The notes under the pieces were generated by a model. The model did no database searches and had not been told where the DNA came from. It saw nothing but the letters and a program-made list of their open reading frames with translations. Below are positions 1 to 64,000 of a stretch of DNA of 64,000 nucleotides, one piece after another. The DNA comes from Tubulanus polymorphus (Eukaryota; Nemertea; Palaeonemertea; Tubulaniformes; Tubulanidae). Positions within the stretch are counted from its first letter, which is position 1, and every line of letters begins with the position of its first letter. Both the position numbers and the translations under genes were made by a program. The DNA lies in assembly GCF_964204645.1 (NCBI RefSeq), contig NC_134026.1, positions 30,026,650-30,090,649 on the forward strand. Reading direction: 5' to 3'.

Positions 1-217
1 TTATATAGAAATACATACATCTGCCAAAAATATGGCCAACATAACTCATTAATGTGATATTAATTTTCATTAAACGTTATACGATGCGCATTCCAAAACC
101 TTTCTTCACAAACTTGTCGTACGTAGATTTTCAGATATCATCTGCACTGATGTCCGAACTCGATATTTCCACACGAGTTCTTTAAGATTGTAATATGTCA
201 AAGTGTATTTAACGTTT

Positions 218-1333
218 TCAGAACTGCGAGGATGTATCTTTAACGTTTGAGACATGATTGAGTTTGTTATTCATTCCAATGCGGCTTAAAGTAGAAGTTG
301 AACCTCGTCTTTTGCTGCTACGCCTTCGCTGCAGAGCAGAATTCAATCCTCTCCGCCAACTGCACAGTAAACGCAACACGTTTTTGTAGCCGCGTCTGAA
401 ATTTTTGTTCATGAAGCCGTAGACGATAGGATTAACACCAGTGCTACAATACGAGATCACGATAAAAACACGGGTTGCTTTTCTCAAATGATCAGTGTGC
501 TCGATGTAATTGTTTATGATACTACAAATTGTAAACGGATAAAAAAGTAAAACGAGCATCAGAAAAGCTATAAACAGAGTCATTATAGAACGCATTTTTG
601 TGGCTGTTTTCCGTGTCGTTCGGCTCGTCTGTCGGACGATCTGTTTGACGCTGTAAATGCGTTCTTCTGCTTGACGAATCGTGAGGAAAATCTTCAAATA
701 CAAAGCGAACATAACTATAGTAGGGATTAACAACGCCACTCCTAGAAAAACTAAGATACAGCTTTTTGGCTTTTGTGTATTGAAGAGACAGGATTTCATA
801 TGTTTATCATAACCGTAATAACAAACGCCACTGAACTGACTGATTGAAATTCCCGCTATACAGAAGATCCAGATGAAAATGCACATCAGAATTACGTTAC
901 GGAGTGTGTAGATTTTCGGATACGCGGTGTGACAACATATTCTATGATAACGATTGATAGCTATAACGCACTGTCCGTACAATGATACACCAAACGTGAT
1001 GCTAGCAAACATTCCAGCGGCCTGGCACAGCCCGGAGTACCCGAGCACGCTGCCCCTCAGCGCAGTAGAGGCCACCACAGTTGGATAGACGAGTAACGCG
1101 AGAAGAAAATCGGAGACGCTTACCGCGATGATAAATGCGTTAGAACTAGTTTGTAAACGTTTCGTCACAGCGAAAGATGAAATGATCAGAGCGTTTCCTA
1201 AAATGCTGATTATCGTTACTATAGTCATTAGAAATACGTCTAAGGACACCATCCATTCCGGAAATCTTATACCAATCGGAACAGTACCGTTCAAATCACT
1301 ATAATTTGACATTTTTGACATTAATTCCTTCAC
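218..1333 (-). CDS. Class A (rhodopsin-like) GPCR, melatonin-receptor-like
   Basis: Single open frame of 371 residues with seven hydrophobic segments, no intron. Two N-glycosylation sequons (NYS at 10, NGT at 15) lie before TM1. Visible class A landmarks are GN at 46-47 in TM1, D75 in TM2, C103 at the top of TM3, NRY at 127-129 in place of DRY, and NPIVY in TM7 followed by a basic helix-8 region. NRY, the following HRICCHTAYPKIY stretch and the TM7/helix-8 segment resemble melatonin-type and related orphan receptors, but melatonin receptors carry NAxxY where this has NPxxY, so the ligand is not predicted. The C-terminal tail has arginine/serine runs (RRRSSKRRGS) that look like basophilic kinase sites. 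The start at 1333 gives the longest frame; Met codons 5 and 8 are alternatives. It is expected in the plasma membrane. Intronless expanded receptors of this kind are common in molluscs and annelids. Confidence 0.85.
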   Translation of the reverse strand: MKELMSKMSNYSDLNGTVPIGIRFPEWMVSLDVFLMTIVTIISILGNALIISSFAVTKRLQTSSNAFIIAVSVSDFLLALLVYPTVVASTALRGSVLGYSGLCQAAGMFASITFGVSLYGQCVIAINRYHRICCHTAYPKIYTLRNVILMCIFIWIFCIAGISISQFSGVCYYGYDKHMKSCLFNTQKPKSCILVFLGVALLIPTIVMFALYLKIFLTIRQAEERIYSVKQIVRQTSRTTRKTATKMRSIMTLFIAFLMLVLLFYPFTICSIINNYIEHTDHLRKATRVFIVISYCSTGVNPIVYGFMNKNFRRGYKNVLRLLCSWRRGLNSALQRRRSSKRRGSTSTLSRIGMNNKLNHVSNVKDTSSQF

Positions 1334-3204
1334 CTCGATCCGATCTAAATCACCTCGGTATCAACTAACTTGTTTACGGATATAAGCCCAATTACAAACT
1401 ATTGAAATTTCGAAATTATAATTCATTGTAGAGTTAATTTATTGATATACCCGTATCTATTGATATAACGTCATTTTCATGTCACAATAAAACAACAAAG
1501 ACAAAATTGATTGAAAATACGGGATTTACTTCCTGTAGGAAGACTGGAACTGAAATACGTATGAATATATATCATTGTACATACACTTTATTAACCCATC
1601 CTGAGTACTGACCACACCCCACGCCTACCAGTACCGGCAACCGGTAGTTGAATACCGGACGTTAGTCAAGTATGAAGTAAGGAGAAGAGAGTTCAGAACG
1701 AGTTTGAATTTAAAGAAAATGCACTGTTTGATACAGAAATTGAGAATATTAGATAAGATCCCGCACAAGGCGGAAAAACGAGTCCGTAAAGTTGACTTGA
1801 ATGAGTACTTTATCCACTGTATCCTAACAGTATTATTGTATCATTTTACAATGACAATAGATTCATGATGTTGCGATATAAACCAGGGTTTTGGAAAAAG
1901 CAAGGCTCGTGTAAACTGAAACCATGAAAAGCAATGTTAGGTGAAGAATGTTAGTCTAGTTGGTCAACAGTATAACAAAATCATCTTCAGGAATATTGTA
2001 TTCCTGGATTCAGTATTCCTGGATTCAGTATTCCTGTCCGGACTATAGTTTTTCCTTTGTATTGTGGGAATGTGTTATACTGTCGCAACAACACGGAAGT
2101 AGTATTATTATACGTAAACTGAGTCATTTGTACAACTGTCGTCTTTATCGCTGTCGTGTACGCTTTCCAGCGAAAATGTGTGGCTAACAATTAGTAGGCG
2201 ATAACTATCAAAAGGAAATAAAATTCAGAAAATTATCTGCATCTATTATTGTGAGATTCAATTATTTATGATATACAATTAATGTTGACTAATGAAAATA
2301 TACGTTGTTAAACATGTGAACAGAGGCTGTAACTAAACGTCTCAAGAGGCAATTATAGCGACTGGCTTTTTCTGCCTGTCTCGTTTTATTTTTGACGTTT
2401 TCTCATCCAGAAATCAATGACACTGTGAAAAGAAAACACGCTACTGTCTCTTTACTATCTCCTTCCTGAACTTCGGCGAAAGGAGGCAATTTTAGAAATT
2501 CTTATATATTTATAAATATATCCGTGATTCATATCGAAGAATACGTTTATGTAATGAACGCTGTTATATATTTAGCGACTAGCTCACTTAACAATACGAT
2601 AAACCTGAATCACATCGAGTATACAATATCCGGATGACATCATCATTAAAACGCTACCTTTCTTCCGTACGAATATCCTGTAATTGCTTCAGCGGAGAAT
2701 CGAAATGAAAACGAGAAGCGCCAGCACCGTCGACATCGTCTGTAGCCACCACATCGTTGTCGATCAGTAAATCTATGCACGGACTTGTGTTCACTATGTC
2801 TGTGATGATGAGACAGTCTCTGCGAGAATACGTAGCCATAGCCCTTATTTACATATAGGGATATAAGTATTATCAGAAATTGTATGCAAAAGAAACGCGT
2901 CAATTACGTAAGTATCTTATCACGTTCAAACAAATTTATGTACTTAATACGCTGCAGTTTCACCATTGATATCTATTCGTTTCGTTTTTATTATGTGCAT
3001 CATTACGTAGCAATTTGATGTTCGGACGCGAATAAACAATAACAGCATCCGCGGTGCCCACGTGCTCAATACTAGAATAACGAAAAATCGAATCTTTCCC
3101 CGTAACTATAGTTTTTGTTGTTAAGTTTGAATTGGTCTAAGCTCATCGACATCGAGATTATAACACTCGACTATTTCCCAACGGTTATTTATTTTTGTCT
3201 TTAC

Positions 3205-21600: not shown

Positions 21601-24258
21601 AAAACCATATCGGAAATCGGTTTGGCGGTTACCGCGGCGCGTATTATTAGCCGAATAATACAACAAATTTATCGTTTTGAATTACAACCATTAGATGTAG
21701 ATAGGTAACTGGTGTATCACTGGTGCATCATCACTGCTTGTGTTCCCAGTACAATATAACGCCAACCTCAAAAATAGAATTGATTCAGTCTCTAATACGT
21801 AAACCAAAAGAAAAAATGCGTGACGTCACATCGGTTTACGATGACGTCAGTGCCAGTCATCCAGTATGTTTTGATGATCATGAAAAATATTTCAATATCC
21901 GATTCGTTGACCACAAGTTCGTCTAATTAAATACCTGATATCAGCTCTTAGTGTCATATAAAAAGTGTTATGATCGGTTATCAAAATTATAACTCATAAA
22001 TGGAATGTTGGTATGCGCTATAAATATCTAAAATCATGTAATCGTGACCACAAATCTGGTTGATATTTTAGTCGAGCGTAAATATTTATCATCCACGTAG
22101 TTTATCATAATCGGTGGCCTTTTGCCCTGTACGGAAACAGATAGAACACCTACATCAGCTACTGTATTCCGCTTTTCGGCGTACATCGATTACGTACAAA
22201 TTTCTTATAAGTGACTTTCCGCGGTGAATTCTTACATAACCTCATACGCGATGAAAGGAGTGAACATTCGGCGAAATTAACATTTACACCTTAATGAATG
22301 AATTACAGATTCAAATTGATAATTGAGATTTTTAATTCCGAACTGAGTTCCGCATTCGCGATTTCAGATTTCACGATAAATTTAGATAATTGAAAAAAAT
22401 TGTATTTAACTCTAAAATCAAATTTCAATCAACTACTATGAAACTGGGTCCTGGAATGGCGTATATAATGATGTACAAGAATGAAAATGTCGGATAAACT
22501 GATATTGCAAATCTATACACTTTATCTTTGAAATGCGGACGACCAATTATTCGATACATCTCTGATATCTCTTTATTTGGCTTTGTATGATGACATGTTT
22601 ATATATTTCCTGTTGTACTGGAATTCCACTATGTAAGATACGGCCGGTTAATTGCTTAAAAATGTACTACGTAATATACAGACGTCAGTAGCACATTACT
22701 GAGTGGCAAAAAAATTAAATGTATTGATTGATGTATACATTTAGCTTGATCAAAAATATCTATCCACTGAAAAATTCGAATTGTTAATTAGTCAATATCC
22801 AAGACTAAAGAGAGTAATTCCACCAGTTTCGAGAATTTTCTCGACGGTTTTGTGTTTCAAATATGAATTGTGTATGAATTGTATATGATTGATTCTAGTT
22901 TCCATCCACCGGATTTCCGCGTACAAAACGTATATCCGGTTCATCACATTTAACGCACAAACTATAGGTTCAACAAGGCTAGCGCAAACAACGATCAACA
23001 AACCCAGCCACTGGTCATTTTTATTCATCATTTTTTTGAATCCGTTTATTTCGAAGTCGCAACGTTTGATTATGTTTCAGTAAAAAAAAAGAAAATTAAT
23101 CCGAAGTTTTTTTTCTGTAGTTACTAAATTAGAAGTTTTATGTAATAGTCACGTTTAAGGTCATTTACTTCTACAAAGTTCGTGAAACAAATATAGTCAG
23201 AGTAGAGAAAATTACTATAGGTCTGTTAGAGATTTTTCCACCTCGCCATAGTTAGTAATAAATACCTCGTAAAAAGGATTTTTCTGCTCTGATTGAAATC
23301 TATTGAAGAACACATTCCAGAGGTTTGGGTGCTTTTCGGTGTTCTGTGCCTGCCCTGGAGCGTTGCTTAGCACGGTGACATACCGAGTTTCGGCTGCCCC
23401 TTTGTACGCGCCAAACACGACCCTCGTTATCAATGTATTGAAGAAAAAATGAAGTATCCACGGCATAAAAAGAAAGTTGAAATAGTGCAGAAGTTTTATC
23501 CAGATGACAAATAGGCCTTCGTCCAACTGAATGTATTTTCGATAAAGTTGAATGTTTTGTTGGACGAATCAGTTGTATACACAGAACTGCTGCCGAAGTG
23601 ATAAATACAATATGCCTTAGATTATTAGATTATTATATATGATGTATGAACAATCATTAGGGAAATTAACGTTATGATTTATTGATTTCTAACTAATGAA
23701 ACCGAGATGAAACTGTTTCTATAAATAGCTAGGATTAACGTTGTCTGCTCACAGAATTGTGTACGCTGACGTTGAAATGACGTCATTGGGATTAGCGAGG
23801 TTATCGCGGAGATTCATATATAGTTATATATTTATACTACTACATTATCGATTATCGATCCATGCATATTAAATCGTGTAATTTTTGTTTTCTATTTCTA
23901 GAGCGACGGAAAATCTTCGAAGTGTCATTTCTATCAAAAACTTACACCGGAAGGATTTTTCGAACTCGAGTCGCAAGCGAATGCGAATTGGTTTGTCGGA
24001 TTTAAGAAAAACGGCAAACCTTTGAAAGGATATGACGCGTCAAATCCGCACCGAGCGCGGAAATGCTTCCAATTTACAATCACATCGATGGCGAAACCCG
24101 ACTCGTTTAGGACTCAACAGGGCTCGCGTTGGGCCCCTGCTGGAAATTTCGGATTATTATGGCCTTTTAGATCCACTAAAAGCCAACAACGAACATCAAA
24201 TGGCCATCATCGGACGAATGTGCATAACAACCGTCGTTTTCTCTCAAACTCACCGTGA
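15682..24258 (+). CDS. FGF8/17/18-type fibroblast growth factor, five coding exons (one donor unresolved)
   Basis: Secreted signalling ligand. Exons read as 15682-15741, 16141-16312, 20447 to about 20480 (or further), 20627-20733 and 23902-24258. Exon 1 encodes only a hydrophobic signal peptide (MYMFFRLLALTVLTQLTINV), the usual FGF8 arrangement. Exon 2 gives a basic linker. Exon 3 carries RQYCLYSQVTG, matching the LYSRTSG strand. Exon 4 has FESESFSGLTRIRG and GHYLCFNKRGRLIVR. Exon 5 begins SDGKSSKCHF and holds NWFVGFKKNGKPLKG, followed by an RARKCFQF segment and a basic tail. The exon 4/5 border falls exactly where vertebrate FGF8 has its intron (LIAK|SNGKG). The frame is open upstream to 15427, but Met 15682 is preferred because it starts the signal peptide. 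Oddity: exon 3 lacks the expected splice donor. The only phase-compatible GT, at 20481, would drop about 20 core residues. FGF8-subfamily identity is firm; the exact exon 3 end is not. Confidence 0.87.
16534..16740 (-). CDS. Possible C-terminal exon of an antisense membrane protein
   Basis: An open stretch in FGF intron 2, on the opposite strand, encodes a charged lead, LVEQTTPLMISFRYLNKP, a hydrophobic segment of about 20 residues (SILAIIVLYLGGFILMNVML) and a short basic tail ending in a stop. The shape resembles the last membrane segment of TLC-domain proteins, where a TPF-like motif precedes the final helix, but this is a weak impression. It might belong with the antisense exons at 22792-23526. 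No intermediate exons were found. Confidence 0.3.
   Translation of the reverse strand: MMSRLSKDSALVEQTTPLMISFRYLNKPAFNVKDSVSILAIIVLYLGGFILMNVMLNKQSVRRVTNKT
19741..19777 (+). repeat. Two-copy 20-bp tandem repeat
   Basis: GGTTCTGTGAACTGGCC occurs at 19741-19757 and again at 19761-19777 inside FGF intron 2, separated by 3 bp. Confidence 0.7.
22792..23526 (-). CDS. Possible two exons of an unidentified membrane protein, antisense in FGF intron 4
   Basis: Two neighbouring open stretches on the minus strand look coding. Exon A, 23266-23526, follows an ACATTCAG acceptor and has 87 codons. It includes a hydrophobic segment (LLHYFNFLFMPWILHFFF) and a soluble part with PNLWNVFFNRFQ, and ends at a GTATTT donor in phase 0. 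Exon B, 22792-23010, starts in the same phase after GACCAG with a second membrane segment (WLGLLIVVCASLVEPIVCAL) and runs to a stop. Base composition here is less AT-rich than the surrounding intron. I do not recognise the family, and upstream exons were not located. It could equally be a transposon remnant or chance frames. Confidence 0.35.
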
Positions 24259-34971: not shown

Positions 34972-35196
34972 TTAGGCCAAAAAAATTGATACCTTGTTTC
35001 TCCGCTCTGCTGAGCTTAAATGTTGACCCGGCCGGCCGCCTATCTACCCTATACATTACTTTTTTTTAAATCGTGATCAATTTCACCATAACAGACCCGG
35101 CCGCTATGGAAATGAACTGTTTATAAATTTTATCATATTTTACAAAAATGACCCGGCCGCTGCGGAGAAACAAGGTATCATTTTTGTTTAGCCTTA
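34972..35196. mobile_element. PIF/Harbinger-like MITE, copy 1
   Basis: Element body 34975-35193 (219 bp) starts GGCCAAAA and ends TTTAGCC. Its ends form a long terminal inverted repeat whose best part is GATACCTTGTTTCTCCGC against GCGGAGAAACAAGGTATC. It is flanked by TTA at 34972-34974 and 35194-35196, the 3-bp TWA duplication typical of PIF/Harbinger. The interior repeats the word GACCCGGCCG three times. There is no coding capacity. It lies between the convergent SIL1 and WDR54 genes. Confidence 0.85.
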
Positions 35197-35577
35197 GGAT
35201 AAAATCAGTGAACCTATAAAAACAAATGCAGCCACATCCTTTTTCCGTGAATACGCCATCTTGACAGCCAAATAGATCCTTGTAGGTAAGTATGAAGTCA
35301 TTGATTGAATTTTTTGCTTCCTAATTTCAAGTACGAGTCGGACGCTTTCAAAGAATGACAAAAAGAAGTATCATACACAGAGAATGAGATGGATAGCTTT
35401 ATTATGTAAACACGTATAAATCTATTTCTATCACAACTGAGAGAATGGCAGTGAAATGATTTTCTCTAATGATTCTATAAACTGTTATTAAAATAGATTC
35501 CTACTGTATCGATACAAAGGGAAATTACAACTTTTCATTTAAAACATAACAATGATGATATTAGTTATCAAACAGAT

Positions 35578-49083: not shown

Positions 49084-52000
49084 ATGGATCGATCTGGACG
49101 ATCTCGCAGATCAGTAATAGAATCTTCTACTAGTGATAATCATGATGATGTCAGTAGAATAAGTTGTGAATTAGTATTCATTTGATGGTTGGAAAATAAG
49201 AGTTTATATGTTTCTATTTTATAGGTTAATCTGATTCCGACCAAAAGATTAAAAAACAAAGGCAACAATGGGCAAACAAATAGCAATAATGATGATAGCA
49301 ACATTGATGAATTATTGGAAAGTATGAAATTCACGAGTGAAATCTGTGTGAAATTGATGTGAAAATTTATAAAAATACTTGAAATTTTATGAAAGTTTTT
49401 GTTTGCAGAAAAAATTTGATGTTCTTTCGTGCTGAATGTTGTATCTGTTTTACTTAGAGAGAAACATATGTGCATGTTAGTCTGAATACCGGACGTTGTT
49501 TATGGGTTCCCCTGTGGAGAACAATGGCTTGATACTAGACTAATGTGCATGTGTTTTATGCTCCTCCTCATTAAGGCCTTATGTTTTGAGTCTCGTAAAA
49601 AGTTTGTGAATTCCATATTTTAGGTTTTGGTTTTTACGAACCACATATATGTCAAGAAGAGAAAGAAAATTTGTTAAAGACTTTACGAGAATCAAAAGAT
49701 GTGGAGGTAAGTGACTACAGTGTTCCCTGAAAATCAGAAAAATTACTACCATTCAAATTTGTGGAAGTGTTTTGTTCTTCGTTATTTTTTCAGCAAGAAA
49801 AAGCTAAAGGTGAAAATTCGGTGGATTTTGACGAGATTCCAATTAATGAAAATGAACAGGTTAGTTTTACTAGGCTCCACTCGATACTGGTCAGATCCAC
49901 CGCAAAAAGTTTTAACTAATGGTATTTTGTCGGGTTTCACCCTGAAGTAGTCAGAAACATGTCTGTGGATATTTTCACAAACCACATTATCGTTGGTATA
50001 AGCTCATCCGATTGTAAAAAGCTTACCACCAACGATTAGGTAACTAATTAACCCTGAAGCTGATAGATGCATCTTCTTTTGAACATTTTCAGACGCAGGG
50101 CCTTAATTTAGAGGATAGAATTACTGATGATGATGATGATGATGAAGGTGATGTGACTGTCATACGTGAATTGAATAATTCCCAGATTAATGACTTTCCC
50201 TGGACAAACAACACAGATGCCAGTAAGCAGTCTGAAGGTAGTCAGGTAACTTAGGAAACAAGATCCAGATCGACATAGTTGACTTCGATATAGATTTAAA
50301 CATCGGAAATGAACTAATTTCAACTCTATCGTCAAACGTAATTGAAAATGTGGATCCTGAAGAATATGGTGTTTTTACAAATTTGATGTGCTTAGATTTT
50401 CACTGAATAACTGTAAGATTTGGTAAATTTCTACCGGTGAAAATTTTTGTATTAAGCATGTATTGATCTATTGAAAAATATGGTGCTTTGAGTTTACAAA
50501 GCGCTTTGACTGCATTTACGCTTCCATTGTAGCTTGAGTATGCAAAGCTGAATAATTTTGTCATTTTAGTGATCCAATAACTTGTCGCAACTGCATTGAT
50601 TCGGACAATTTTACCTCAAAATTATGAACTAATAAGGCTAAAAAAAATTGATACCTTGTTTCTCCGCTCTGCTGAGATTAAATGTTGACCCGGCCAGCCG
50701 CCTATCTACCCTATACATTACTTTTTTTAAAATCGTGATCAATTTAACCATAACAGACCCGGCCGCTATAGAAATGAACTGTTTATTAATTTTATCATAT
50801 TTTACAAAAATGACCCGGCCGCTGCGGAGAAACAAGGTATCATTTTTGTTTAGCCTAATTTCTGTACAGACATATTTTCAGAACGATGAAGTTGATGTAG
50901 AAATTGATGAGACTGATCAGAATGAAGATAATATTTATAGCACTGATTCGGTATCTCATTCCTCAAAACGAAGACGTCTTTCATCTGAACAAGCTCCTCA
51001 ACTAAAAAGAGGAAGAAACGAAAATGTAAAAGTGGTATGTGTTTGATTACTATCGGGCACATCTGCAGCTCAAAGTCCTCAATCTTAGTTCAGTTTGATA
51101 AGTGTTCAGTTTTTTCGTGGACACCAGAATTTTGTGATGATTAGTTCTTAGCTTAGTAAAATTTAACTAAAGAAACTGTGGAATGGAAACCCGGTTTCAC
51201 AGCGTGACGAAAGAGTTGAAACAGGTTCATTTTCAATGCTCTTTAACCCAGAGGGACTTGAACCCTTTGGAATTGGATCCTAATTGTTTTTGATTATTGA
51301 AATTATAATAAATGCATTTTTTGTTGCTTTTTAGGAAAAACGTTATCGTCCGATTTTTTCATTTGAAGAGTGGTCCGATGACGATTCGTCAAAATCACCG
51401 CAACCGAAACAGTTAAAACGCGTGTATAAAAGAAACACTTGTAACGAGTTCTCATATTTTACACCAAAGGGCGCTTGTCCGCGCAAACAAAGCCTTAGAG
51501 TATACAAACACATTCTCAACTATCATAGACATTTGTTTGAATATCAATCGCGTCTACGATCGCGAATATCGTGGGAAGGAATTGAATCTATAAAACCTGG
51601 TCCTCATATACCGGGCACACTAGATGTTTATCAAAGGGGGGAAACTGCTCAAAGCGATACAGACTCTGATGCGGAGGAGGGCAAGGATTTAGGACCTGAA
51701 TTCAGTTGTTTACCGTCGCAAATATCGGAAAAAAAACGTAAAATTAAACGCGCGTCATCATTGAAAATACCCGAAGAGAAAAGATTCGAAATCGCGAAGC
51801 AAATGGGAAGGATCGGAATGGATTCTAGCCGCGCTGAATCTCCCGATCTTGACTTTCAGGCTAATACGAAACAACGTTTATTAACGGAAGAAAAAGAGAT
51901 TGATTTCAAGGAAAGTGAGACGTGGGAACTGCCTTTAAATCAACGAATAGCTCAACTACCGCAGCGGCGCCAGAGCGTTAACAATCGCGCAACAACAGAC

Positions 52001-53543
52001 AACATGTGGTTATCACCTTCATCCAGTGAAAATAAACCACAAATTACTACATGTCGGGGTCGAGGGAAGCGTTCATCTAATAATCAGTCGTCAGACGACG
52101 GAATACGTAGGAATCCGGTGAGGTTATCTCGGAAAAAAAAACCGCTAGTCGATGATATCTACGATTTTGAATCTAATATAGAAGAGGATAGAATAACGCC
52201 TCCGATGAAAGATAACCGTCTGAAAAATATCGAACCTGAAGTAATACCACCAGAGGTACTACAACATGTTTCAATTATAAACTCTGCATTTATTCGATAT
52301 ACAGTAGACTCTTTACTCTCGACGTCTCTCAAATCAGTGAATTTTACTAAAATCTATTTTGTAAAACCTTCAATCTCTCCAAATTCTCAGCTCGGTAATA
52401 TGGTCAACTCTGTGAGATATTTACAGCAGTGCCAACCAGTCTACTATATTCATCGATATCGATGTGTAATTGTTTTGATATCTCTGTTTAATTTTAGTTA
52501 CTACAAGATGAAATGGTAACCTGTCCAATATGTTATGATGAATACCCTCACAGTGAAATTACACATCATGCCTCTGGTTGTGAGGGAACTTCAGGTTAGT
52601 ATCGATTCTAAACTTATACCGCTAACTTAGTCAGCAAACTGCGACTGGCAGTAAAAGTCAGAGTAATTGAGTTCATATTGTTCTACATTGATTTGTTTTT
52701 CATTTATTTCAATATAGATTCATTGCCATCAATACACCAGTGGTAGGTTCAATTGCAGATCTCTTTACAAACAGTTTTTTAAAGGATAAGTTTTTTTATC
52801 AAAATGTTTTAACTCTTAGGCATCATCCACGTAAAAATCCACTGAGGGAAGTTCGAGAAAAAAAATCATCGGAGGTTGGAACACAAGGTGGGAAACCAGA
52901 AGCATCTATTGGGTAAGTCTAGTATCTTTTAATCCATCTGAAAAATAAATCGAATGAGTTTTACAAATCTTATAATATATATTCACTATGTTTCAGCACT
53001 CGACCACAAGAAACAGATGAAGGTATGTTAAATATCTCGTATACAATAAACAATGCTTAATTGGGATTAATCGGATCAAATGAAATTCATCTGATTTATG
53101 AGAAATCTGCTTTAATTCAACTAGTTTCATGTCCAAATTGAATGGTGTTCATGCACACCTACAATCTTTGAGATATCTGAATATCGGTGGGCAAAGCTTC
53201 CCTCATTCTAAATAACAGTCCTACAAGGATTTTTGATTGATCTTGATAACATGTGAATTGATGAATTGATAACATTTGATTAGGCTAAAAAAAATTGATA
53301 CCTTGTTTCTCCGCTCTGATGAGCTTAAATGTTGACCAGGCCGGCCGCCTATCTACCCTGTACATTACTTTTTTAAAAATCGTGATCAATTTTACCATAA
53401 CAGACCCGGCCGCTATAGAAATGAACTGTTTATAAATTTTATCATATTTTACAAAAATGACCCGGCCGCTGCGGAGAAACAAGGTATCATTTTTGTTTAG
53501 CCTTAATGATATATTTTAATATCTTACAGATATGTTTGGATAA
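49084..53543 (+). CDS. UIMC1/RAP80-like ubiquitin-binding DNA-repair protein
   Basis: Twelve exons: 49084-49149, 49225-49321, 49624-49706, 49794-49859, 50093-50245, 50882-51034, 51335-52255, 52498-52594, 52718-52742, 52820-52912, 52997-53022 and 53530-53543. Phases agree and give 597 residues. Features: a ubiquitin-interacting-like helix at 66-82 (EEKENLLKTLRESKDVE, Thr where Ala is usual); a SUMO-interaction-like VTVI at 125-128 after an acidic run; a basic KRRRL cluster; a YF-x5-CP...VYKHILNYH...YQSRL segment at 247-284 that matches the Abraxas-interacting region of RAP80 in spacing; and a UBZ/Rad18-type zinc finger CPICYDEYPHSEITHHASGC (Cys522, Cys525, His537, Cys541). RAP80 recruits the BRCA1-A complex to ubiquitylated chromatin. 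The first donor (GTCAGT) is weak. The last intron and one internal intron carry MITEs. The order of motifs is the main support; overall similarity is low. Confidence 0.65.
49939..50059 (-). mobile_element. TAGTTAG-type MITE, copy 3, with perfect 9-bp duplication
   Basis: The body 49948-50050, read on the minus strand, opens TAATTAGTTACCTAATCGTT and closes TTTCTGACTA. It is flanked by perfect 9-bp direct repeats ACCCTGAAG (49939-49947 and 50051-50059). A 9-bp duplication points to the Mutator-like group. It sits in an intron of the RAP80-like gene. Confidence 0.75.
50633..50858. mobile_element. PIF/Harbinger-like MITE, copy 2
   Basis: Body 50636-50855 (220 bp), nearly identical to the copy at 34975, flanked by TAA at 50633-50635 and 50856-50858. 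It lies in the RAP80-like gene intron just before the exon at 50882. The short open frames across it are by-products of its sequence. Confidence 0.85.
53280..53505. mobile_element. PIF/Harbinger-like MITE, copy 3
   Basis: Body 53283-53502 (220 bp), flanked by TTA at 53280-53282 and 53503-53505. It lies in the final intron of the RAP80-like gene. It differs from the other copies by only scattered substitutions. Confidence 0.85.
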
Positions 53544-53927: not shown

Positions 53928-53949
53928 AATAAAATATTTTTTCAATAAA
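53928..53949 (+). terminator. Poly(A) signals of the RAP80-like gene
   Basis: Two AATAAA hexamers, at 53928-53933 and 53944-53949, lie about 390 bp after the stop codon. Confidence 0.6.
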
Positions 53950-56115
53950 ATAATGTAGTAATGATTGTTTATTTGTGCCGATCTAATTGATACATGTACA
54001 TCAGCCTTTTGACAGTTAGAAGTATACAACAATACCATAGAAGAGAGTTTATATATATATGACAGTTGCAAGACATTCTCTGTACTAATTTAGTAGTGGT
54101 TCTCTCAATTTCGGCAAAATTAAACTGAAAACCTCCTACTAGCAGTTAGGAAAGTGTTGGAAAACGCCACTGTTCAACTTAGTTTCGAAATAAAATAGTC
54201 TAAATTTTAGTCCATTCTCATTCTGTGGCCGAAAAAGAAAAATTTGGGATTCGAATACGAGCAGTTGTGGATCATGGCATGGGGGCAGTGCCCTTTCCTT
54301 TGCCGCATTAGACCATCGAGGTATAAACTGACGTCACAAATTATTGGCCACTCATTGCCTGACCCTAACCGAGAACACCTACGTCATCAAGTAATCCGCC
54401 ATACAATGGCAAGGGGTTAATAGAATCGAGGCGTCCGACATTGGCAAGTGAGTAATCGTAAGTGCTGCCATCTGTAGTAATAATTATTTTCGTTAAGCTG
54501 TTGATTTTTATTAATAATTTCTAGAACACGTTAGCTATTTTGTATTTTTGAAATATATTTGTGTGCTTGTAATGTAAATCGTTTTCAATTATATCTGTAT
54601 ATTTTTACTATATGAATAAAGTGAAAATTGAATTGAATTGTTGAATGAACTGAAAGGCTGATAATTATCATGTTATTAATGATAATAAACAGATATTTCC
54701 TTTTAGATAATGAAATTATTGTTGAATTACAAACTCACGAGTAATCGAGGTAATTGTTAGAATATGATAAACTGTAAGATTTAATGAGGGGATTGCTGAA
54801 TATAGATAAGAAGATGAATGAATCTTCTTCGACTTCTTCATCGCCGATCGATTGGCGGTGGATATTTTGTATTTTTTTGGGATTCCTTGGACTCAAGCCA
54901 AGGCTAAGTCTCATCCTTAGGTGCGATTCAAGAATAGGGGACTATAGCAATATATATGTAGTGATAGTAATCAATTAATTAATAATATTAGTAATTGATA
55001 ATGATGATATATAATGGTAGTAATGTATATAGTAATTAATGATAATTAAGGAAATCCTAACCCTAATCCTAACCACTAGTCCCCTATTCTTGAATCTTAC
55101 CTTCTTCTAAAGGATAGGGCCTTGTTTAGACCACCAAAGATTATTATAGAATTAGTATTATTGATAACAAAAATATCAGCCTCATATGACTTAGAAAGTG
55201 GTTTCCTATATGACAGACACCCATGTATTGTGACATCATTGCGTACCAACCTATTCTTGGTGAAGTTGCCTGGTTTTTTTAACATGATGATTGATGCTCT
55301 AATTGACCTTTTAGCTTCTCATGTGCACTCAATCTAATAATATCAATTAATGAATGTAATTAGTTGATGAGTAATTGATGAATGCGGCATCACATGTTTG
55401 TATGTAATTGCTCTGCTTATTGCACATTTATCTATATGGAACAACATTTTGATTTGCAGTCTGTGAATTTTTTTAATCTAAAGCAGGATGTTGAAATAGG
55501 TCTAAATATATAAATAATGGTCGCAAATACCCCTATTTGAATAGCTAGAATTAATCGTTTTGGTTGATTAAGTATAGTTGTGTATGAAGGTTGTCATAAC
55601 TGGTATTTGTAGCCTATTTGTCGCAGTAATGTATGTTAGGAAAGTGCTGTAATTTAGGAGCTCATAATCAGTATGTTGTATGCGCAAGAAATATTACAGT
55701 TGTACTGCATTTATTTTACGGTGGATTATCGCGTTATAACAAACTTCAGGGTCAAGTTTCACGATAATGTCAAACTGAAACTTTTGGTTGAATCGCTATT
55801 GGTTCTTTCATTGTCGATGAGGAGACAAATTCAAATGTAACTTTGCGGAAAGTTTTTCATGAAACTAAACTCAGGAGGGGACAGAAAGTCTGTTCGTTTT
55901 AACTGATAGTTAGCGTTGTGATACGGAAATGAAATTATTTGAAACATTATTTTCTAAGATTGACCTCTTTTTAAAAGATATTTTCATTAATGTATGAAAT
56001 GCAAATGAATTAAAGTGCGTTTATATTGATTGCAATAGCGCTTTACAGCCATTTCTATGAATTTTCTATGACAAATGATTGTGATGAAACATCATTTTTC
56101 GGTTATTTTCAGAAA
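53950..56115. other. Interval between the RAP80-like gene and the RGS12 start
   Basis: It holds the presumed RGS12 promoter and 5' non-coding exons, which I could not place. A foldback element spans about 54925-55096, and a partial CTCF-like motif lies at 54464-54478. Small open frames near 54784-55337 fall in the foldback region and have no domain support. Confidence 0.5.
54925..55096. mobile_element. Foldback element with perfect 20-bp inverted ends
   Basis: GATTCAAGAATAGGGGACTA (54925-54944) has its exact reverse complement at 55077-55096, around an AT-rich core. Weaker inverted similarity continues outward to about 54885 and 55135. No target duplication was identified. Confidence 0.65.
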
Positions 56116-59100
56116 ATGCATCATCAGAAAAGACGAAAGAAGCGTCAAACTCACGGAGTAAAAACGGTAGAGATCGCGCGCGGGCGTAATGGATACGGGT
56201 TTACGATATCGGGTCAACAGCCGTGTATTCTGAGTTGTATCGTCGCGGGCAGCCCAGCCGAACGAGCCGGCCTAAAACCGGGCGATTTACTCCTCGCCGT
56301 GAACGGAGAGAATATTTCGAAATCTCCTCACGACGACGCCGTTCGTTTGATCGGCTCGTCAAGTGGCGTTCTCGTTTTACAGATCGCCGAGAGCAACAAC
56401 AGCTCGGATTCTTCCGACGACGACTATCACTATATACAAAAACCGCGCTCGAAATATCCGAGCAGAACGCGCAGTCGAAATCAGAATATATACAGAGCGG
56501 AGAAAGTGGTCGCCGATTTACAAGCGGGGGTTATATTTCACGATCGTCCGAGTCAGGGAGTGGCACCGTTACGGAGAACCGGTAGTCCGGCTGCGTTCAC
56601 CGTAGATAGTTCGATTCATACTCAATTGCCCGATGATGTCGCAACGCCTCCCGCTCCGCAGAGGAATCGAAACTCGTCTAGAACTAATCAGAGACACGAA
56701 CCGTCGCCGGTTCCGAGTCGACAATCACCGGCTGCGAGTTTTCACGAAGTTATTCACGTATTCGGTCCGCCCGACGTGGACGTCGCGTCGAATGAAGCAG
56801 CCGCGTTGAATACGATCGGACTCCGACGCGGAGGAGAGTTCGTTCAGAGTTTACCGAATTTAGTTTCGTCGTGTATGAAGCCGATATCGAACGCGCGTAG
56901 TTCGGCCGGTAATCTGGAGCTGTTAGCGACGTCGACGACGAACTCGACGCCTCTCGAACGTTTCATCGTCGGTTACGTCGGTTCGATCGAGATTCCGGTC
57001 GATGTCGGTCGTCCGAACTCTCAGATTCTAACGATTAAAAACGCCGTTCGTAGATTACGAGTCGAGCAGAGTCGCATTCATACGTTAGTATTATTAGAAG
57101 TTTACGACGATCGAATCAAACTGTTGAACGCGCTCGGTACGACGATGGCTGTTTATCCCACCGATAAACTGGCGTTCGGCGCCGTTTGTCCGGATGATAA
57201 GAAGTTTTTCGGGTTGATAACTCGTCAGCAGCAGCAGCCCTCACGCAGCGAGGACACGCCGAATAGCAGTTCGTGTCATATATTTATGATTGATATTGAG
57301 TTAGAATCTCACACGATTCACGCGGAACGAGCTCTCACGTTCGCGATAAGATGCACGCGTTCCATCGATCAGGAGCGATGTCAGGAGTTCCCGCGCTCGG
57401 CGTCACCCGTCGTACGCGCCATCGTTAACGCATTAAACATCGATGGTGGCGCCACCTCCGCCGCGGGATCGAACCTCGCCAATCGGAGTTTCAGTAATAG
57501 CAGTACGAATAGCGACAGCGGACTCGGTTTCGGTCGAGAAGAGATTCATCGCAATAACCAGGTTTACATCGTCGATTCACAGCTGAATCCGGCGGCGGCG
57601 ACGAGGAGCGTTAATTATCGGCTGATGCGTGAAGCTCGTACGTCGAGTCCCGTTCAATTACGACCAGCTTTTCATGCGCAGCAGAGAAGTTTAGATTCGG
57701 AATCGCAATCGGAATCGGTTTCAAGTGCATTTATAAGTTCGAGACCGGATAAAACTTCATCTCCGGTCACAGTCGGTGAGTATGACCAGACGTCTGATGG
57801 GTTTAAAGTGCCCCGAATACCGGACACAACTCGGAGCAGGTTTAACGCGAGTAATTCATCGTCGCCGCGAGATCAACTCGACCAACAGAATAGCGCCGAT
57901 AATCTACGTCGTAATACGCAGAAACTGATGTCCGTTCGTCATCGTTACTCGACAGACGTACACTCGGGAAGCAGCGACGCCGATTCAGTTCGTTCGGAGA
58001 ATCCGATGACTCCGCGATTCCATGCGGTCGACAGACGACCCGTTTCCATTCCGAACGATACAACGTTTTCAAGAACGCCATCGAGATCTGGCCAGCAACG
58101 AGAGACTGATAGCAGCAGTGCAGGACAGGGAGCTGGTGGCGCGGTGCTAGCCAGTAAACTCAGTCCACGAGCGATTACTCCTAAAACTGATACGGCAGAT
58201 AGAATTAAATATGAAGTTGATTTGCCGGATAAGAAATCACTTCATAACAGACAGGTAGGTTTTAAACTTGAATTTTAATTTTGAAATGTTGAAATTGAAT
58301 CAAGGCTTGATTTTAACAATTCTAGAGTATATCTTCTCTTCAGGATAGAAGATATTCTATTGTCAGTATCCCGCCACGTCAAAACTTGATAATCTCCCAG
58401 TTTGCCTTTGATTTAAGTTTCTAGAAAACAAAGGAAAGAATTGAATTTAATATCTTCGAAGTTGAAATCAAAATATTTCCTCTATCCTGTCAGGATAGTT
58501 TCATTTTAATACTAGTCTTGCGACAAAAAATTGAGTCCTTAGGACTCTGCCAAGATTGCGCCCTGTGAATATATGCAGTTTTTGTTGTGAATTTAGGTAA
58601 AGTAAGTTTTTAACCACCTGAAAATTTTGAATACCGGTATTTCAAGTACCCTGTATTTACTCAGTTCTCAGGACATTGTTACATGGAAACTATGTGAAAC
58701 AACGAATTCAGGGCACCAGAAAATCTGTTCGTTATAACCGATAGTTCGTTAAATCCAGTAGGCAATTATTGCGCATGTCCTATTTAACCCTTTCAGTGCT
58801 GACTAATTAATACCCTATAGTGCTGGAGAAAATTTGAAAATTCTAAAAAATTCCACCCTAGTGTGTTGAACAATGGGAATACCACTATAGTGCGTCTACA
58901 CCGCAGTGCGGTGTATCGTTAGTTACTAGTATTTCACTATGTTTGACACTTGCTGCCATTTTTCAATAGAGATAATTACAAATTACTAATTACATCAATA
59001 CACCGCAGTGCGGTGTACTAGCAAAATCCATCACTGATTTTATACACCGCACTGCGGTGTAGACGCACTGAAAGGGTTAAGAAAAAATTCTAGGTTTGTA

Positions 59101-62100
59101 ATAACCAATAAATCAGTATATCTGAGTTTGTTATAAAGAGGGTCCACCGTATAAAGTCATACTCGCCACATATTGTGAGTGGTGAATTTAAACAGGATTG
59201 ATTTAGACTAATAACAGTCTGTTGCCTGTATAAAAGTGAATCCACAATGATTAGGTATAATCAGTAGTTGTTGTTCTGCCGAATAGAAATATTTGCTGTT
59301 TATACCTTATGATTGCATGTTTGCATTCGTAGAAGCACATTTGAATTTACGTTAGTGAGGATACTTGCGTCATACGAATGATGATGGCGATTATTATTAT
59401 GATTACTATTATTATTATGATTATTATTATTATTATTATTATTATTGTTCTAGGTATCCGGATGCAGCGATGATACAAATCAACGAGTCGTGTTGAGAAA
59501 TTTAAATCAAACTTTATCGCCTCCGAATCAGATAAATAGACGCGCCAACATCAGTTTGAGTCATTCACACGAGGTAAGACACTCAAACGTTCATCTCTGT
59601 TTTTAGCAGAATTATCTCTCTTTTTTTTTACTTGAATTTGTGCTGATTTCGTCTCGTGAATCATGGTCAAAATTTTGTTTACAAAGACTAACCTCGGAAC
59701 ACCTCGGTTTCTTGCTTTTCGCGCTGCCTTCATCTGGGTGCCTCTAATGGCGCGAAAAGGTGCCCTACATATATATGTTGGTTCACCCAGAAATAACCCT
59801 ACATCTGTCCTTGATGTCACCTTCGCTTATTGTTTACGGTAAACAATAACGTCAGTGCTGGAAATTAGATTACCACATAGAATCCTTAATGGTTTTATCA
59901 TTAGTTGTCTTCCTTCATAGTCACATCAGAAATTACCCGTCGGCTTAAAACAGATACCAGGGAGTTATATTGATAACCGTAGGGAGAACAACATTTCATG
60001 GATATTCTCGCACAGCAGTTTTCACACATCCCGATAAACCCAATATTTTCAGTTCGAAGATCATCAAAATGAAGTTCGATTTTAAATGTCGAAAATTATG
60101 AATTTTTGATACAAAATACACTATTTTAGTGAATACTCACTATAACTGTCGATCCAAAATCTTTGGAGGCAGGCAGGGGTTGTGTACAATGCGCATTTTG
60201 GACCTGGTGAGTTCGGTCATGAATGTATATTTTCAACGTTTTAGATTGAACTTTATTTAGTCTGAGCGTTCACAACGCGGTTGAATTGATTAATATCTTA
60301 CTTATGTAAACATAACCCATTAGTTTTCGATAATCACGTTGTGCCGATTGATAAAGCGAATGTCACTGTATATATTTATGAAGTGTGAAATCTCGATTAA
60401 CACTTCACGAAAAATACATTGCTATTTTAGTTTAATTTCCATTTGTTAGCATTCATTGGCAGATATTATTATATTATCATGACGCGATTTTCCGAAAAGG
60501 GAAAAAGAAGACGTTTTTCTTTTGAAGTCTGAAAGTTGAAAAGGCTTCCCTTTATTTTCGATTATGGGAACTAATACTAGGACACGATTGTCGCGTACCG
60601 ATGACGTTATATTCTAGTTTAGTTCATAGGTCAGAGATTAGTGAATATTGAAATGTTGAGCACTATTTCAATGTTTTATGAATAATGGAACCGTACTGTT
60701 TAAGAGGTACCTATACATATCATCCTCATTTTGTTTATCAACTCTCTCAGACTCACACGCAGGTATGTTTCATTCACTTCGTTTCAATTTTAAAATCTAA
60801 ATTCATGAATCCATCGTTTGATGATGATGATGATGTGTTTTTTAATTTGAGCAGAAAATTTAATGGAAAATTTCTTATGAAATTTCTTCAAATTACTTTA
60901 GCAAATCCTATCTTTTAAAACCCCTGGGGCCAGTTGCACAGTCGTGACTTAAGTCCAAAAGTGGTCTTAAATCTTAAGACTGGTCTTAAGTTGTTAGATT
61001 TGCTATAGAACAAAGTTGGTCTTAGACTGGTCTTAAGTCTAAGTCATGACTATGCAACCGGCCCCAGAAGTGTTTAACTGAAGTAGGCGGGAATTTAACG
61101 GATAATTTCTATCAAAATTTCTGAAGATATCTGCAGAAATTATTTATATCATAGCATCATTAATGAATTTGATTAAACCCATGATGTGTTTAACTCGAGT
61201 ACAGACTGAAAATTTGATGAAAAATATTACTAAAAGTTTCTCCAAAAATGATTCAATTCCTATTCCTTCATTAGATAGCACGATCGACATTCATCATTAA
61301 TTAGGTGACAATGTGTAGTCAGACTATGTGAATGCTCGGGTCACTTATTGAATATTATTGACAAGGCGAAATACAGCTGGTTCATCTGATTATTGAATAT
61401 TCATCAATACACGTATTAGTACATGTACGTGTAGACAGTGGATGCTGACATTTTAAAGTCTCCAACGCACCAGAAAATATTCTTTGAAAATCTTCTGAGT
61501 TTAATTAGCGCGTTGAACAGAGAATTTTCACATATTTTAATTGTACTGGGTGAAACGGAAGCTGGTGTAGAGCTCACGTTGATTAACCTGTACTGCGTGA
61601 CAGAGACAGTAAGACAGTGACTGTCCACTGCGGCAGATGATGTGAATTCATTCCTCCTGCGTGAAATATGTACAGTCGCTGGAGGATTTTATTTCTGAAA
61701 AAGGCTAATAGTTTCCCAATTCAGGTAATAGATTATCGTGGTCCATTGTAGTTCGTGTAGAAATTGAAATCTTCAGTTATATCCATCATGAATGATGTAA
61801 TCATTGAGTTTACGGTTTTAGCACTACTGTATAGAATTGTAGGTACATGTATATGAATTACCGAGGTAAGCTATCTTTTGGAGAACAGTAGACATGAGGT
61901 GGATGTGTAAAATACTCTATCTATAGAATATTCGCATTCGCATTTTTCGCAGTGTTTGATCTGTTCGGGTGTGTTTGACCTGATGAGGTTTCCTGTAAGT
62001 GTTCGACCTGATGAGGTGTCCTGCAAGTGTTTGACCTGATGAGGTTTCCTGTAAGTGTTTGACCTGATGAGGTTTCCTGCAAGTGTTTGACCTGATGAGG

Positions 62101-63341
62101 TTTCCTGTAAGTGTTTGACCTGATGAGGTTTCCTGCAAGTGTTTGACCTGATGAGGTTTCCTGTAAGTGTTCGACCTGATGAGGTTTCCTGTAAGTGTTC
62201 GACCTGATGAGGTTTCCTGCAAGTGTTTGACCTGATGAGGTTTCCTGTAAGTGTTTGACCTGATGAGGTTTCCTGTAAGTGTTTGACCTGATGAGGTTTC
62301 CTGCAAGTGTTTGACCTGATGAGGTTTCCTGTAAGTGTTCGACCTGATGAGGTTTCCTGCAAGTGTTTGGACCTGATGAGGTTTTCTGCAAGTGTTTGGA
62401 CCTGATGAGGTTTCCTGCAAGTGTTTGGACCTGATAAGGTTTCCTGCAAGTGTTTGATCTGATAAGTTGTCCTGGAAGTGTTTGATCTGTTCAGGTGTCC
62501 TGGAAGTGTTTGATCTGTTCAGGCGTTCAGGAAGTGTTTAACCTGTTCAGGAAGTGTTTAACCTGTTCAGGAAGTGTTTGATCTGTTCAGGAAGTGTTTG
62601 ATCTGTTCAGGTGTTCAGGAAGTGTTTAACCTGTTCAGGCATTCAGGAAGTGTTTAACCTGTTCAGGTGTTCTATGAGTAATTGATCGATGTAGTTGGAT
62701 GATGTTGTTGTTATTATATTTCAGTCGTTGGTTAGCCCAGATTTACGCGACCAATCGGGAGGAAACTTAAACAAATCACGACTGGTTCCGGTCGGTAGTT
62801 TAGACGTATTAGAAAATCAAAATGATTTAGAAACGTCGACGAACAATGCATCGGGGTCTGCAGGACGTGCGGCGGGTTGGGCTGTATCTCTACACAGATT
62901 ACTGGATGATCGTTCGGGTCTCGATGCTTTTACGGTAAGAGTTTCATCGTGAATCATTTTACTAAATCTCTTAAGATAACGTGACTACAACAGTTATACG
63001 TATTGTTATTACAGTCGTTCTTGAAAAAAGAGTTCAGCGAAGAGAATATCGTATTTTGGACGGCGTGTGAAAATTATAAAAAAATTGAAAAACTAGACGA
63101 GGTTCGTGAAAACCGTGTGAACATTTATCGTTATGAACGGTGTTTGTAATTTCTGTTTGATGTAAAAAAATGAAAATCGCGTTTCGAATTTTAGCGTAAA
63201 ACGTTGGCTACGGAAATATTTGATAAGCATTTAGCAGTAAGAAGTACAGAACCGGTTAATATTGATAGTCACGCTCGCAAGATTACTGAAGAGAATCTTC
63301 ATAAATCTCATATTGATCTATTCAATGAAGCTCAGAGACAG
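56116..63341 (+). CDS. RGS12: RGS12-type regulator of G-protein signalling (5' part, runs off the window)
   Basis: Visible coding exons: 56116-58254, 59454-59573, 62725-62934, 63015-63101 and 63195-63341, all in phase 0 (901 residues so far). A PDZ domain spans about 16-93 (VEIARGRNGYGFTISG, with GYGF as the carboxylate-binding loop, then GLKPGDLLLAVNG). A PTB domain lies at about 279-440 (LERFIVGYVGSIEIP ... CHIFMIDIE). The RGS domain starts near 800 ([43 protein letters not shown]) and is cut before its last helices. PDZ-PTB-RGS order is diagnostic for RGS12 (fly loco); Ras-binding and GoLoco domains are expected beyond the window. The protein accelerates GTP hydrolysis on Gi/o alpha subunits and scaffolds receptor and MAPK signalling. 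Met 56116 follows a TTTTCAG acceptor; an upstream in-frame Met at 56026 is probably intronic. The first exon is distinctly GC-richer than its surroundings. Confidence 0.92.
58784..59080. mobile_element. piggyBac-like MITE with three internal palindromes
   Basis: The body 58788-59076 (289 bp) starts CCCTTTCAGTGC and ends with its exact inverse GCACTGAAAGGG, flanked by TTAA on both sides, the hallmark of piggyBac. Inside, a 19-bp palindrome (TACACCGCAGTGCGGTGTA) occurs at 58897-58915 and 58999-59017, and once more with a changed centre at 59043-59061. It is non-coding and lies in RGS12 intron 1. Confidence 0.85.
59389..59447. repeat. (ATT)n microsatellite near an RGS12 acceptor
   Basis: An interrupted ATT run ends a few bases before the TTCTAG acceptor of the exon at 59454, so it may supply the polypyrimidine-poor upstream tract. 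Confidence 0.8.
59827..59849. promoter_or_regulatory. 23-bp palindrome made of two convergent forkhead sites
   Basis: TTATTGTTTAC, one central G, then GTAAACAATAA: each half contains the forkhead consensus GTAAACA (reverse TGTTTAC). It lies in RGS12 intron 2, 254 bp after an exon. Confidence 0.5.
60924..61067. mobile_element. 144-bp foldback MITE (CTGGGGCC ends)
   Basis: The left end CTGGGGCCAGTTGCACAGTC is mirrored by GACTATGCAACCGGCCCCAG with a few mismatches. The interior is made of GGTCTTAAG-type words in both orientations. It is in RGS12 intron 2. Confidence 0.65.
61971..62665 (+). repeat. 28-bp minisatellite in RGS12 intron 2
   Basis: About 16 well-conserved units of GTGTTTGACCTGATGAGG plus TTTCCTGYAA run from 61971 to about 62450 and then grade into shorter, diverged units (TGTTCAGG, GGAAGTGTTT) up to about 62665. 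Two positions alternate between units (TTTGA/TTCGA and TGTAA/TGCAA). Because 28 is not a multiple of three and the unit lacks stops on the minus strand, all three minus frames stay open; these are not genes. Confidence 0.95.
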
Positions 63342-63416
63342 GTAATTTTATTGTTTCTCATTGATTGCGTTTTTAAACGAACGTAGCTGCTGCTGCTGCT
63401 CAACAAGACACAATCT

Positions 63417-63525
63417 CTACTCTCCCCTTCTCTCTCCCTCTCTCTCCCTCTCTCTCCCTCTCTCTCCCTCTCTCTCCCTCTCTCTCCCTCTCTCTCCCTC
63501 TCTCCCTCTCTCTCCCTCCCTCTCA
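63417..63525. repeat. (TCTCTCCC)n microsatellite in an RGS12 intron
   Basis: About a dozen 8-bp TCTCTCCC units follow the exon ending at 63341. Reading frames through it are artefacts of the repeat. Confidence 0.9.
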
Positions 63526-63719
63526 CTGATAGAATGTCTATATTATCTGATATTCAATTAGTATCACACACTGTTAATTAGTGCCTCGGAGAAAATAGCG
63601 ATTCACTCGTGCGGTTTTCTGAACATAAAATATAAATATGTACTGATTAATATCTCTGTCCGTCATGAAACCTGAAAATCTTCCAATTGTCAAATTTAGA
63701 AGAGTTTTACGTCCCAACT

Positions 63720-63935
63720 GCAATTAGTTACAGTGTAACCCTAGTGGGTCTTAAGAGACGGCCAGGGCCTTTTTATAGGCTGTTATGGCTCACAACCTGA
63801 CTAAGTTAGCAGAGCTTAGTCCACGTAGGTGCCTCGACAGCCAACGCCAGAGGTGGTTTCGAACTAGGGACCTCTGGGTTCCCAGTCCTTCACTCAACCA
63901 ACTGAGCTAACTGCACAGGACTGCTGTGCAGTTAG
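63720..63935 (-). mobile_element. tRNA-derived SINE
   Basis: On the minus strand an A-box-like TTAGCTCAGTTGG (complement of 63898-63910) is followed by a B-box-like AGTTCGAAACC (complement of 63855-63865) with tRNA-like spacing. About 130 bp of unrelated tail follows. The anticodon and T stems do not pair properly, so it is a SINE and not a working tRNA gene. The start of the element is mirrored: CTAACTGCACAG (63907-63918) and CTGTGCAGTTAG (63924-63935) form a perfect inverted repeat. Confidence 0.65.
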
Positions 63936-64000
63936 TGTCTTGTCAATTACTTGTTATTTGCCTCAACTTATTCGTATGAAGGGAATGACTTGCAGAAAGG

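Follow-up and report, generated by a model that had tools for sequence, protein, structure and literature searches.

RAP80 (UIMC1) is an adaptor protein through which the BRCA1-A repair complex reaches broken DNA. The question raised by the gene at positions 49084..53543 (+ strand) of the window, the whole 64,000-nucleotide stretch of Tubulanus polymorphus DNA analysed here, is whether this adaptor and its complex are older than vertebrates. A survey of 47 species traced the origin of UIMC1 and FAM175A (ABRAXAS1) to the root of the vertebrates (PMC3969565), and according to a later paper only RAP80 appeared in vertebrates (PMC6849265). No description of an invertebrate RAP80 was found in a search of largely open-access literature. 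RAP80-like proteins of invertebrates may already carry that name in automatically generated annotations of public databases. The initial annotation had described the gene as a divergent invertebrate RAP80/UIMC1, and this is still its best explanation: the product is quite probably a very divergent orthologue, a reading that draws on a zinc finger, the spacing of an Abraxas-interacting-like (AIR-like) segment, gene order and the presence of the corresponding partner genes taken together, none of them decisive alone.

The C-terminal CCHC zinc finger CPICYDEYPHSEITHHASGC (aa 522-541, 52522..52581, + strand) is near certain, from its sequence, to belong to the UBZ4 class of ubiquitin-binding fingers. 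It follows the Cx2Cx11Hx3C spacing of that class, and its local alignment score against finger 1 of human RAP80 (61) was reached by none of 1000 shuffles and was the highest among 2108 ORFs of the window. The CPxCxxxxPxxxIxxHAxxC finger reported at the outset is thus present, and human and mouse RAP80 (PDB 9sqy chain I, 6gvw chain E) share its more extended form CP.C....P...I..HA..C.G. The UBZ4 fingers of RAD18 and WRNIP1 (PDB 5vf0, 2mre, 3vhs) have the same spacing and equivalent Pro and Ile residues, but carry HL where the candidate and RAP80 carry HA before the last Cys. Since the candidate scores 54 against RAD18 and 50 against WRNIP1, with RAP80 ahead but not by much, and since phmmer against PDB ranks RAD18 above RAP80, the finger fixes the class and not the exact family. 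The sole NCBIfam match of the candidate is rad18 (E 5.6e-4, far below the cut-off of that model), which reflects a resemblance to UBZ4 fingers generally and not to one unrelated family. The second zinc finger of human RAP80 is missing from the candidate. A search of the whole genome (a 268-Mb assembly of 77 contigs) with the human zinc-finger region gave E 2 at best and missed the candidate itself, so that its silence is uninformative; the same holds for an AlphaFold2 model of the candidate finger exon alone (pLDDT 57.6).

Outside the finger, no significant alignment to human RAP80 was obtained by phmmer, local alignment or hhalign, and the whole protein had no match in PDB (phmmer) or Pfam. 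Overall alignment to the RAP80 comparison set, made up of human and mouse only with no bridging sequences, is weak (597 versus 719 aa). Both the candidate and human and mouse RAP80 are acidic, mostly disordered proteins in which an AIR-spacing motif is followed by a helix, a predicted one in the candidate. In RAP80, the AIR is the region through which the protein is integrated into BRCA1-A. In the candidate, the AIR-like segment spans aa 247-300 (51455..51616, + strand; YFx5CPx7YxxIL and a predicted helix, from a pattern scan and an AlphaFold2 model). Its core, YF...CP...Y...IL at aa 247-267, has the human order and the exact human spacing YF-x5-CP-x7-Y-xx-[VI], and in YFTPKGACPRKQSLRVYKHIL the residues Y, F, C, P and Y are spaced identically to those of human RAP80, the letters of which were confirmed at every residue with 9sqy chain I. 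The pattern was contained in none of 5000 shuffles and has no other occurrence among the 410,148 residues translated from the window and from fetched loci, the further matches listed being overlapping copies of the candidate; it was written after the segment had already been flagged and is not an unbiased test. In the same set of residues, the AIR and finger patterns are each confined to the candidate gene, and the first precedes the second, which is the right order.

Alignment scores do not establish the proposed Abraxas-interacting-like segment. A BLOSUM62 local alignment with human RAP80 is not significant (277/1000 shuffles scored as high) and hhalign against the human and mouse AIR returned a probability of <1%; in a semi-global alignment the segment falls in its correct place, a result matched or bettered by 1.6 to 8.6% of shuffles. 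Single-sequence AlphaFold2 of the AIR piece produced only a helix (aa 260-282, pLDDT 75-80 there), and phmmer of the candidate AIR against PDB produced no match. A canonical AIR was not found elsewhere in the genome by a type of search able to detect BRCC36 exons of 33-60 aa. Two further AIR-like matches were rejected. The first, at window 151-240, has a score of 55, above that of the candidate itself, and is attributed to chance: a TGA stands immediately before it without an intervening acceptor, and on the opposite strand a GPCR gene has its 3' end here. The second, which lies ~433 kb ahead of the window on the same contig and matches at 39% across aa 246-294, is the low-complexity sequence YIYIHICIYH; it is the single AIR-like match in a search that found no real paralogue of the candidate.

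Altered ubiquitin-reading modules, placed in the reverse of the human order, were also part of the original proposal. The pieces in question can be seen in the sequence. A UIM-like helix, EEKENLLKTLRESKDVE, was picked out by motif score at aa 66-82 (49656..49706, + strand); Thr does occupy the position of the key Ala, as noted earlier, and the UIM score of the helix, read as EEKENLLKTLRES, is equalled in 6.6% of shuffles. A SIM-like strand, VTVI, follows an acidic run at aa 125-128 (50153..50164, + strand), with a post hoc shuffle frequency of 1.3%. However, another SIM-like strand, VNLI, identified in a weak motif scan after SDNHDD at aa 23-26 (49225..49236, + strand), precedes the helix, as in human RAP80. 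An alternative UIM-like piece, (EEKR)FEIAKQMGRIGM, also from a weak motif scan, starts at aa 357 (51785..51820, + strand), with Ala present and Gly at the usual Ser; this Ala-bearing piece, EEKRFEIAKQMG, lies after the AIR-like segment and scores highest in local alignment with human UIM1, although not significantly. VNLI and VTVI are both possible SUMO-interacting motifs near the N-terminus, neither of them convincing. RAP80 has two tandem UIMs specific for K63-linked ubiquitin; no convincing pair of this kind was found in the candidate and the Pfam UIM is absent as well, which, given the divergence of the protein, is not decisive. Neither altered ubiquitin reading nor a reversed order is established, the UIM-like and SIM-like pieces being assigned too weakly and not uniquely. 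The candidate thus differs from human RAP80 in having one finger in place of two, no proven tandem UIMs and an uncertain SIM position.

The partner genes speak independently for RAP80. The absence of Abraxas and BABAM genes had been named as an argument against the identification, but BRE, MERIT40, BRCC36 and an Abraxas-type scaffold are all encoded in the same genome, together with RNF8 (parts in order at one locus) and BRCA1. BRCC36 has collinear exons, carries GWYHSHPHITVWPS and has a JAMM motif that is intact, histidines included. The BRCA1 BRCT region was detected with E 1.2e-20, and its phosphopeptide-pocket sequence CERTLKYF is conserved, which comprises R1699, T1700, K1702 and F1704. 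The human BRCC36, MERIT40, BRE, BRCA1 and RNF8 queries served for locus finding and alignment only. Queries with ABRAXAS1 and ABRO1 led to one and the same scaffold locus, and the protein assembled from its exons is about equally close to both human proteins (150.8 bits to ABRAXAS1, 146.1 to ABRO1), as would be expected of a gene from before their duplication. This scaffold ends in SSSPVF (L023 4004-4413; G000:C2, ~26.0045 Mb). The verified human C-termini are SRSPTF for ABRAXAS1 and NTQTSQI for ABRO1, and pSer406 in the SRSPTF end binds the BRCT repeats of BRCA1 (PMC12731174). By sequence, the scaffold tail thus matches the BRCA1-binding tail of ABRAXAS1, and the finding of such a tail on the one scaffold of an invertebrate tells as much as the RAP80 candidate does.

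From these elements, the candidate would be the RAP80 (UIMC1) subunit of an invertebrate BRCA1-A complex, an acidic and largely disordered nuclear adaptor recruited to breaks. The scaffold would hold the AIR-like segment of the candidate (aa 247-300) as it passes through BRE and MERIT40. On RNF8-marked chromatin, the UBZ4-type finger, perhaps together with one UIM-like helix, would recognise ubiquitin, and a SIM-like strand would recognise SUMO. K63-linked chains would be trimmed by BRCC36, and BRCA1 would be bound through the phosphorylated SSSPVF tail of the scaffold.

The candidate may also be a true RAP80 orthologue that serves a single ancestral BRCC36 complex in general, covering the later roles of both BRISC and BRCA1-A, with no dedicated DNA-break complex. 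This reading, which overlaps the preferred one so that the two are not mutually exclusive, is a tentative one: one scaffold gene answers both ABRAXAS1 and ABRO1 queries, and a review derives the separate BRCA1-A and BRISC complexes, and with them the scaffold split, from a vertebrate genome duplication (PMC7692841), whereas the BRCA1-binding tail of the scaffold and the presence of a BRCA1 with a matching pocket make a BRCA1 role also likely. The insect BRCC36-KIAA0157-BRE-MERIT40 complex (PMC4579573, PMC7692841) likewise has a single scaffold with BRCC36, BRE and MERIT40; the RAP80 candidate, BRCA1 and the SPxF-tailed scaffold set the present genome apart. Diptera are without BRCA1 and BRCA1-A (PMC6849265).

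Since the RAP80 candidate and its partner proteins are encoded in the same genome, the RAP80/BRCA1-A machinery probably predates vertebrates. There is an even chance that the history was of a more specific kind, in which an invertebrate with one scaffold, not yet duplicated, already possessed the complete BRCA1-A arrangement of a RAP80 adaptor and an SPxF-tailed scaffold. On this view the duplication in vertebrates would have divided an older complex that had served both purposes, the ABRO1 branch giving up the BRCA1 tail, and would not have created BRCA1-A anew; ubiquitin reading would have depended on a UBZ finger earlier than, or instead of, tandem UIMs. If true, an invertebrate RAP80 with a BRCA1-tailed scaffold implies an earlier origin of this repair-recruitment system and suggests that ABRO1 lost a BRCA1 link rather than never having it. 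The candidate would also be a divergent natural variant useful for learning which AIR residues matter.

A different lineage for the candidate itself is unlikely. Its product could be a nuclear protein whose UBZ4 zinc finger comes from elsewhere, for example a rearranged RAD18/WRNIP1 type, and whose AIR-like stretch arose by chance; such a protein would bind ubiquitin yet stand outside BRCA1-A. The near-equal finger scores, the weak rad18 match and the non-significant AIR alignment all fit this reading, but the catalytic or other domains of RAD18 and WRNIP1 that accompany UBZ4 (RING and SAP, or AAA ATPase) were not found in the full protein with Pfam, and it is also opposed by the unique AIR-spacing motif, correctly ordered relative to the finger, and by the gene neighbourhood. 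The next gene downstream of the candidate (56014..64000, + strand, continuing past the window) encodes a PDZ domain and then, within 7 kb further along the contig, an RBD and a GoLoco motif. This set of domains is typical of RGS12/RGS14, and the gene is classed by its sequence as an RGS12/RGS14 homologue. This parallels the human linkage of UIMC1 and RGS14, which are eight genes apart on 5q35 in the order UNC5A HK3 UIMC1 ZNF346 FGFR4 NSD1 RAB24 PRELID1 MXD3 LMAN2 RGS14 (PMC2997777; also PMC6542989). The chance that a random gene lies so near either human homologue was estimated from gene counts at ~0.2%, or under 1% allowing for all of the few identifiable neighbours, and the adjacency is therefore useful as independent support for RAP80 identity, a supporting rather than a defining feature.

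Elsewhere in the window, an FGF-domain exon lies at 23902-24255 (Pfam E 3.8e-7). Long open frames of a repeated RSNTCRKPHQVQTLAENL-like unit on the - strand at 61874-62537 probably represent a minisatellite. Intronless rhodopsin-family GPCR genes occur on the - strand at window 221-1360 and at L046 8835-9818, close together, possibly as a local cluster.

The gene model underlying this argument comprises 12 coding exons on the + strand (49084-49149, 49225-49321, 49624-49706, 49794-49859, 50093-50245, 50882-51034, 51335-52255, 52498-52594, 52718-52742, 52820-52912, 52997-53022 and 53530-53543), the ends of which, 49084 and 53543, are exactly those given by the initial annotation. Joined, they read in a single frame without interruption from ATG to TAA (597 codons), with GT-AG at all introns; exon 7 is open across 307 codons amid AT-rich DNA, and direct reading of the sequence places a candidate polyadenylation signal, AATAAA, at 53928..53933 (+ strand), ~390 bases 3' of the stop. 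On these grounds the model is very likely correct. That the locus is a gene-model artefact or a decaying pseudogene is highly improbable: the model is built on genomic sequence and includes two very short exons (25 and 14 bases), but twelve GT-AG exons in frame, the long open exon, a start, a stop and an AATAAA speak against it.

A small inverted-repeat element is present twice in the gene, in introns 5 and 11 (window 50632-50856 and 53279-53503), as copies of 225 bp with 96% identity. The element has terminal inverted repeats of 33-37 nt and flanking TAA/TTA duplications, features as in PIF/Harbinger-type MITEs, and a similar piece lies near window 35069-35320.
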